Positions 7,562 to 9,600 of a DNA stretch of 34,322 nucleotides are shown in pieces (positions within the stretch are counted from its first letter, which is position 1; each line of letters opens with the position of its first letter). Source of the stretch: Methanosphaera stadtmanae (GTDB lineage Archaea; Methanobacteriota; Methanobacteria; Methanobacteriales; Methanobacteriaceae); the NCBI GenBank assembly GCA_015062825.1, contig SUTR01000007.1, positions 28,260 to 62,581 of the forward strand, given 5' to 3'. Position numbers and translations under genes: made by a program. Below the pieces are notes generated by a model, which was given only the letters and a program-made list of their open reading frames with translations, made no database searches and was not told where the DNA came from.

Positions 7562-7846
7562 ATGACTAAGAAAAAAAATAAATTACAAGAATTGGGAGTT
7601 ATTAGCCATATTACAAGTACAAATAAACTAATAATCCCCTCAAATAAAACTCCACGAATAGGAACAACATTAGTTAACAAGAATAGACAAGCAATAGGCA
7701 GAATAAATGACATAATTGGACCTACAAAAAATCCATACATATCAGTTAAAACAAATCATAAATTCAAAAAAATAAACGTTGGAGAAAAAGTATATTTACC
7801 ACCAAAAAATAAAGGAAGGAGGATGAGAAAACGGCAGGCATACTAA
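7562..7846 (+). CDS. gar1: H/ACA RNP protein Gar1
   Basis: A 94-residue archaeal Gar1, the beta-barrel subunit of H/ACA ribonucleoproteins that binds Cbf5 and helps turnover in RNA-guided pseudouridylation. Features seen are [30 protein letters not shown], then [19 protein letters not shown], and a basic tail. No ribosome binding site precedes the ATG; AATTATATTT about 40 bases upstream may be a TATA box, so the leader would be very short. gar1 directly preceding TFB is a common archaeal arrangement. Its last codons overlap a strong GGAGG (7818-7822) belonging to the next frame: AGG AGG ATG encodes Arg-Arg-Met of Gar1. Confidence 0.92.
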
Positions 7847-8484
7847 GAAGAAAACGAAAATACGGGAGACCAAGAAAAACATCAAAAAGATTAAAAGATG
7901 ACAGAAAAAAAGAAGAAGAAAAACCACCCGTAGAAGAAACAATCACTGAAGAAGAAAACACCGAAGAAGAGGAAGAAGAGGAAGAAGAGGAAGAAGAGGA
8001 AGAAGAAGAAAAAAACACCAAAAAAACTACAAAAAACAAAAAAGTCAAAAAAGAAGATAAAAAACCTAAAAAACGAGGAAGACCAAAAAAGAAAACAACA
8101 GACAAAGAAAGCGAAGATGACAGCAAACATACAACAACCATTCTAGAAAAACAAGAACCACCTAAAAAACGTGGCCCTGGAAGACCAAAAAAAGAGAAAG
8201 AACCAGAGAAAAAGAAAAAACGAAAAGCAGGAAGACCAAAGAAAAAAACAACAGAAACAGCCGATAAAAAAGAAACCAAAAAAAGAGGCCCAGGAAGACC
8301 AAAGAAAAAAACAACAGAAAAAACAACAAAAACCACTAAGAAAAAATCAGGAAAATCAAAGAAAAAAACTGAAAAAGAAACTGAAGAAAAAGCAAAAAGC
8401 AAAAAATCAACCAATCCACTAATAGGTATCATAGACAACATAAAAACTTCCAAAAAAGATGATGACGATACAAATGATGACGAT
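7831..8484 (+). other. AT-hook rich extension in frame with TFB, no canonical start
   Basis: The TFB frame is open without interruption from 7813 (TAA at 7810-7812) to the TFB stop. Between 7813 and 8484 there are 224 codons with no ATG, GTG or TTG. The translation is not noise. It contains five AT-hook cores: Y-G-R-P-R-K (7861-7878), K-R-G-R-P-K-K-K (near 8071-8094), R-G-P-G-R-P-K-K (near 8170-8193), A-G-R-P-K-K-K (8227-8247) and R-G-P-G-R-P-K-K-K (near 8284-8310), plus a degenerate S-G-K-S-K-K-K (8347-8367). A run of 16 Glu (7963-8010) and an Asp-rich end precede ATG 8485. GGAGG at 7818-7822 is 8 bases before ACG 7831, which would give (M)[15 protein letters not shown]. Inference: the extension is translated by ACG initiation or by a -1 frameshift from gar1, or else one base is wrong in the sequence. 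Confidence 0.6.
7963..8010 (+). repeat. GAAGAAGAG tandem repeat encoding poly-Glu
   Basis: Four exact copies of the 9-mer GAAGAAGAG are followed by four GAA, giving 16 Glu codons in the TFB frame. Slippage in units of 3 or 9 would change the length without breaking the frame. Confidence 0.8.

Positions 8485-9600
<1,116 letters not shown>

Follow-up and report, generated by a model that had tools for sequence, protein, structure and literature searches.

Gene organization at the gar1/TFB junction

The window (the whole stretch of 34,322 nucleotides analyzed here) comes from a Methanosphaera-type genome of 2.6 Mb and contains two overlapping genes, one for the H/ACA RNP protein Gar1 and one for TFB, an essential general transcription factor (Table 1). 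Gar1 was identified by a match to Pfam PF04410 (E 8e-14), and its matches to NCBIfam PRK13149 lay below the cut-off. The protein encoded downstream has the zinc ribbon (E 2e-20) and the two TFIIB repeats (E 7e-48) of an archaeal TFB, and its score of 541.7 bits against NCBIfam PRK00423.1 is well above the cut-off of 384.

Table 1. Features of the gar1/TFB junction (window coordinates)
Feature	Position	Strand	Basis or remark
gar1 (H/ACA RNP protein Gar1, 94 aa)	7562..7846	+	Stop TAA 7844-7846; Pfam match
Shine-Dalgarno (SD) AAGGAGG, inside gar1	7816..7822	+	Read from sequence
ACG, putative TFB start codon	7831..7833	+	8 nt after GGAGG; at this place ACG in 91 and ATG in 8 of 99 distinct loci
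TFB coding sequence, 589 aa if counted from ACG	7831..9600	+	Open frame conserved in intact Methanosphaera loci; domains
Basic N-terminal extension of TFB; contains an acidic run and several AT-hook-like motifs, GRP(K/R)K	7831..8703	+	Conservation
First in-frame ATG of TFB	8485..8487	+	Without SD; position not conserved
TFIIB zinc ribbon (residues 292-333)	8704..8829	+	Pfam

TFB lies in the -1 frame with respect to gar1, and the putative TFB start is overlapped by gar1 over 16 nt. A TAA at 7810-7812 precedes this frame, which is open from 7813 and free of stops to 9600. The first ATG, GTG, or TTG within it is the ATG at 8485, which is unlikely to be the main TFB start. Across the junction, the gar1 codons are AGG 7817, AGG 7820, ATG 7823, AGA 7826, AAA 7829, and CGG 7832. 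The original prediction had placed a GGAGG (7818-7822) within gar1 as the two AGG codons, a spacer of 8 nt between it and the ACG at 7831 (ATGAGAAA), and an AAAA run at 7828-7831; these coordinates and readings all hold. Directly 3' of the GGAGG there is also an out-of-frame ATG (7823-7825; GGAGGATGA). It is present in all ACG-type Methanosphaera (defined below) and many Methanobrevibacter and in none of the ATG-type Methanosphaera, and in two loci (L021/L038) it forms ATG-TAA.

Conservation of the ACG codon

We searched 152 genomes of the class Methanobacteria (a phylum-level search gave the identical 152) and, after removal of duplicates, compared 99 distinct gar1-linked TFB loci. At the place of the TFB start, the triplet is ACG in 91 and ATG in 8, and no other triplet occurs; such recurrence of the ACG is no accident. 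A codon one base off AUG thus lies at SD distance and is nearly constant in the relatives. It is exchanged with ATG only, and the adjoining codons vary: among the ACG loci the start triplet has a single form and its neighbors have 3 to 26 forms. All ACG loci also have G at positions -12 and -9 before the start.

TFB was present in every Methanosphaera genome searched, and the intact loci consist of a single long open frame of about 550 to 660 aa. The junction is of two types in this genus. Twelve of 19 species, including that of the window, have GGAGG-8 nt-ACG, mostly followed as ACG GCA GGC, with a product reading xAGILKRKKRYGRPHK; the other seven have GGAGG-7 nt-ATG GCA GGx (MAGILKRKKRLGRPRK). 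The MAGIL.. of the ATG type and the (ACG)AGIL.. of the ACG type align without gaps from the start codon onward. The comparison of close relatives suggested with the original prediction therefore yielded both a recurrent ACG and an ATG at exactly its place in sister species. One Methanosphaera assembly (L015) keeps the ACG and has an indel within an A-rich part of the extension, which splits the TFB frame.

The ACG is found as well in single-contig genomes of 1,767,403, 1,751,377, 1,243,342, 1,853,160, and 2,937,203 bp, which we take to be, in that order, those of M. stadtmanae DSM 3091, M. thermautotrophicus, Methanothermus fervidus, M. smithii, and M. ruminantium. When the ACG and ATG labels are placed on the TFB tree, the deepest branches carry ACG and four changes are needed; the ATG species of Methanosphaera do not form a clean group in this gene tree, which leaves the number of reversals uncertain. 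A complete Methanosphaera genome of 2.87 Mb contains three extra, divergent TFB-like copies (L025, L029, and L030). The paralogue L025 opens with an ordinary ATG, so the ACG feature belongs to the gar1-linked orthologue.

Start codon or consequence of the gar1 overlap

The ACG might be a mere by-product of encoding the Gar1 C terminus (x-Arg), with TFB starting elsewhere, or the end of gar1 might carry a programmed -1 frameshift site (AGA AAA CGG) yielding a Gar1-TFB fusion. Both ideas draw on the 72 loci in which the ACG lies inside gar1 as xxA-CGN with TFB in the -1 frame, as in the window; the by-product reading also draws on the absence of this overlap from all 8 ATG loci (too few independent pairs on the tree for statistics) and on the 22 loci with a canonical codon at +4. 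However, the ACG is kept in 19 loci without the usual overlap: gar1 overlaps in another frame in five ACG loci and ends 1 to 315 nt upstream of the ACG in 14 (L021/L038 read ATG TAA CT ACG), 11 of which have no ATG, GTG, or TTG in the next 8 codons. Given the 14 loci in which gar1 ends early, the ACG is explained neither by a frameshift in gar1 nor by coding in the overlap. Slippage, which the original prediction had offered as its second option, encounters the further difficulty that AAA, CAA, GTA, CTA, CCA, ACA, and GCA all precede CGN (nine different residues over the 72 loci, with the third base always A) and that a plain ATG occupies the site in sister species. With no conserved slippery site and with the upstream frame absent or closed in many loci, the sequence comparison refutes a -1 frameshift as a general explanation, and we regard it as extremely improbable. 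As for the by-product reading, in 26 ACG loci the frame lacks any ATG, GTG, or TTG from its preceding stop to the zinc ribbon, in 76 no such codon before the zinc ribbon is led by an SD, and ATG replaces exactly the ACG triplet. The gar1 codon choice at the overlap is also unusual: the Arg codon is CGN in 72 of 72 loci and CGA or CGG in 62 of these, codons that account for just 20 of 367 Arg codons across the ORFs of the window. The retention of ACG without the usual overlap, the lack of alternative starts, and this odd codon choice together indicate that the ACG tracks TFB and not gar1, and a by-product is very unlikely.

The third option originally offered was a base missing from the A run, through either assembly error or recent mutation, to which one may add C-to-U editing of the mRNA that turns ACG into AUG. 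The run at 7828-7831 and the frame-breaking indel further down the extension in L015 lend the missing base some plausibility, but the identical junction occurs in 12 of 19 Methanosphaera species and ACG in nearly all other genera. This reading fails because independent isolates and metagenome assemblies share the junction, and since complete genomes of other genera carry the ACG, a sequencing error is not the cause; we find a lost base scarcely conceivable. Editing would account for the exact exchange with ATG, but it would give no reason to conserve the C, and against it also counts that we know of no mRNA C-to-U editing in these archaea; it too is extremely improbable as the cause. Editing of ACG to AUG is described for chloroplasts (PMC9845219). 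Among the three options that had been left unranked, the one that treats ACG 7831 as a start codon with a good SD thus gained strong support from class-wide conservation and exact replacement by ATG in relatives, and the other two did not stand.

If the ACG is a start codon, the gar1 overlap would help to lock it, because ATGA in place of ACGA would introduce a stop codon into gar1; the absence of the usual overlap from the ATG loci is as expected in that case. In 22 loci (Methanothermobacter, Methanobacterium-like, and others), a canonical codon, in most cases ATG, is found four codons downstream of the ACG and could be the start. The ACG start is less certain there, and the ACG may be present in them and yet not be the main start. 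Judged from sequence, the assignment of an ACG start is firm in Methanosphaera and in most Methanobrevibacter; in the remaining Methanobacteria it is probable. For the class as a whole, we are surer of the presence of the ACG than of its use.

Rarity of SD-led ACG and translation context

We scanned two genomes for comparable sites, the presumed M. stadtmanae genome (three SD forms) and the presumed M. smithii genome (one SD form). Besides that of TFB, the two contain 40 GGAGG-N5-9-ACG sites, none of which opens a gene without a canonical start. With the GGTGA and AGGAG forms, among the first 30 sites per pattern in the presumed M. stadtmanae genome, only TFB and two further SD-ACG candidates were obtained. 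Both of these were dropped as frames that are antisense to real genes or shadow them.

The presumed M. stadtmanae genome encodes an ordinary CAU initiator tRNA and an ordinary tRNA-Thr(CGU), and no special initiator tRNA with a CGU anticodon was found in it. Initiation on ACG would therefore rest on a C-A mismatch stabilized by the SD. The anti-SD sequence GGATCACCTCC was matched only in the presumed M. thermautotrophicus and M. fervidus genomes, and in the other genomes no clear end of the 16S was obtained with a looser pattern. RNA structure around the start was unremarkable (mean z of -0.5 over 91 loci against mononucleotide shuffles).

Proposed mechanism and purpose

We consider it very probable, from the comparative evidence, that TFB is translated from ACG 7831 as an SD-placed start read by the CAU initiator tRNA. 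The strong AAGGAGG at the end of gar1 would position the 30S subunit, in part via ribosomes finishing gar1, and the ordinary initiator tRNA would start on ACG despite the C-A mismatch at the middle base. We infer both initiation at this codon and the residue inserted; the product would be a 589-residue TFB with Met first in place of Thr. In archaea, the choice of start codon is monitored by aIF1, aIF1A, and aIF2 (PMC6412873), and in an E. coli reporter the activity from ACG is 0.1 to 1.5% of that from ATG (PMC6925171). As ACG is such a poor start, TFB synthesis would be held low, and the strong SD and the bad codon together could fix it at a low fraction of the gar1 and mRNA supply, with the gar1 overlap additionally locking the codon in many species.

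Because the ACG stayed fixed while flanking bases changed, it probably serves to hold back TFB synthesis deliberately. Taken by itself, a low-expression purpose has about even chances of being right, and weak initiation would not be indispensable, as ATG-type species manage without the ACG. One might go further and see in the ACG a regulatory sensor by which TFB, and with it global transcription, tracks how stringent or how abundant the initiation machinery is (aIF1, aIF2, free 30S, and gar1 translation), in an infC-like translation-transcription loop retained since the ancestor of Methanobacteria; this combined proposal is so far unsupported, and we think it unlikely.

Relation to known non-AUG starts

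Conserved unusual starts are already known. The account in PMC9845219 of bacterial infC (IF3), which starts with AUU, cites Butler 1987 and Brombach 1987 for the loss of autocontrol when this codon is changed to AUG. Like TFB, infC is a core-machinery gene whose rare start codon limits, or in the case of TFB may limit, expression, but the codon, the domain of life, and the gene differ. TFB is a transcription factor that is not known to take part in start selection, and the infC feedback loop therefore does not follow for it. Chloroplast genes have conserved non-AUG starts (GUG and UUG) or an edited ACG that set protein levels (PMC9845219). They resemble TFB in the conservation of a non-AUG start; however, GUG and UUG are ordinary secondary starts, and the chloroplast ACG is edited to AUG. 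Fungal transcription factors of the cpc-1/GCN4 type acquire an N-terminal extension from conserved near-cognate codons (PMC5487733) and thus share with TFB a long extension without an in-frame AUG. There, however, initiation is eukaryotic and uses several near-cognate codons besides an AUG form, whereas in Methanobacteria one SD-placed ACG is the sole plausible TFB start in many species.

We found no report in the open-licence literature of an archaeal general transcription factor that starts with ACG throughout a class. If the ACG of TFB is a class-wide start, it is to our knowledge the clearest conserved start other than AUG, GUG, or UUG in archaea. Gene callers normally accept ATG, GTG, and TTG only, and TFB is therefore likely misannotated in many methanogens, at the cost of the AT-hook extension in Methanosphaera and, in at least 26 loci, of the zinc ribbon that recruits RNA polymerase. 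The ACG-type species and their ATG-type sisters also offer a clean natural experiment on archaeal start selection.

The N-terminal extension of TFB

The first 218 codons of the extension in the window can be reached from the ACG alone. Two motifs in the extension, xAGILKRKKRxGRPRK and a second one of 21 residues, are common to ACG-type and ATG-type species, and a pN/pS of about 0.5 indicates that the region preceding the first canonical start is under coding constraint. In Methanosphaera, the extension measures about 190 to 290 aa, the number of GRP(K/R)K repeats differs between species, and some species have an acidic run. Most other Methanobacteria do not have this AT-hook-like extension. 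Long TFB extensions of different appearance, preceded by GGAG-8 nt-ACG, occur in M. curvatus (L101/L128) and Methanoflexus (L102), one with KKTTKKS repeats and the other with acidic repeats. N-terminal extensions of TFB thus seem to have arisen more than once.
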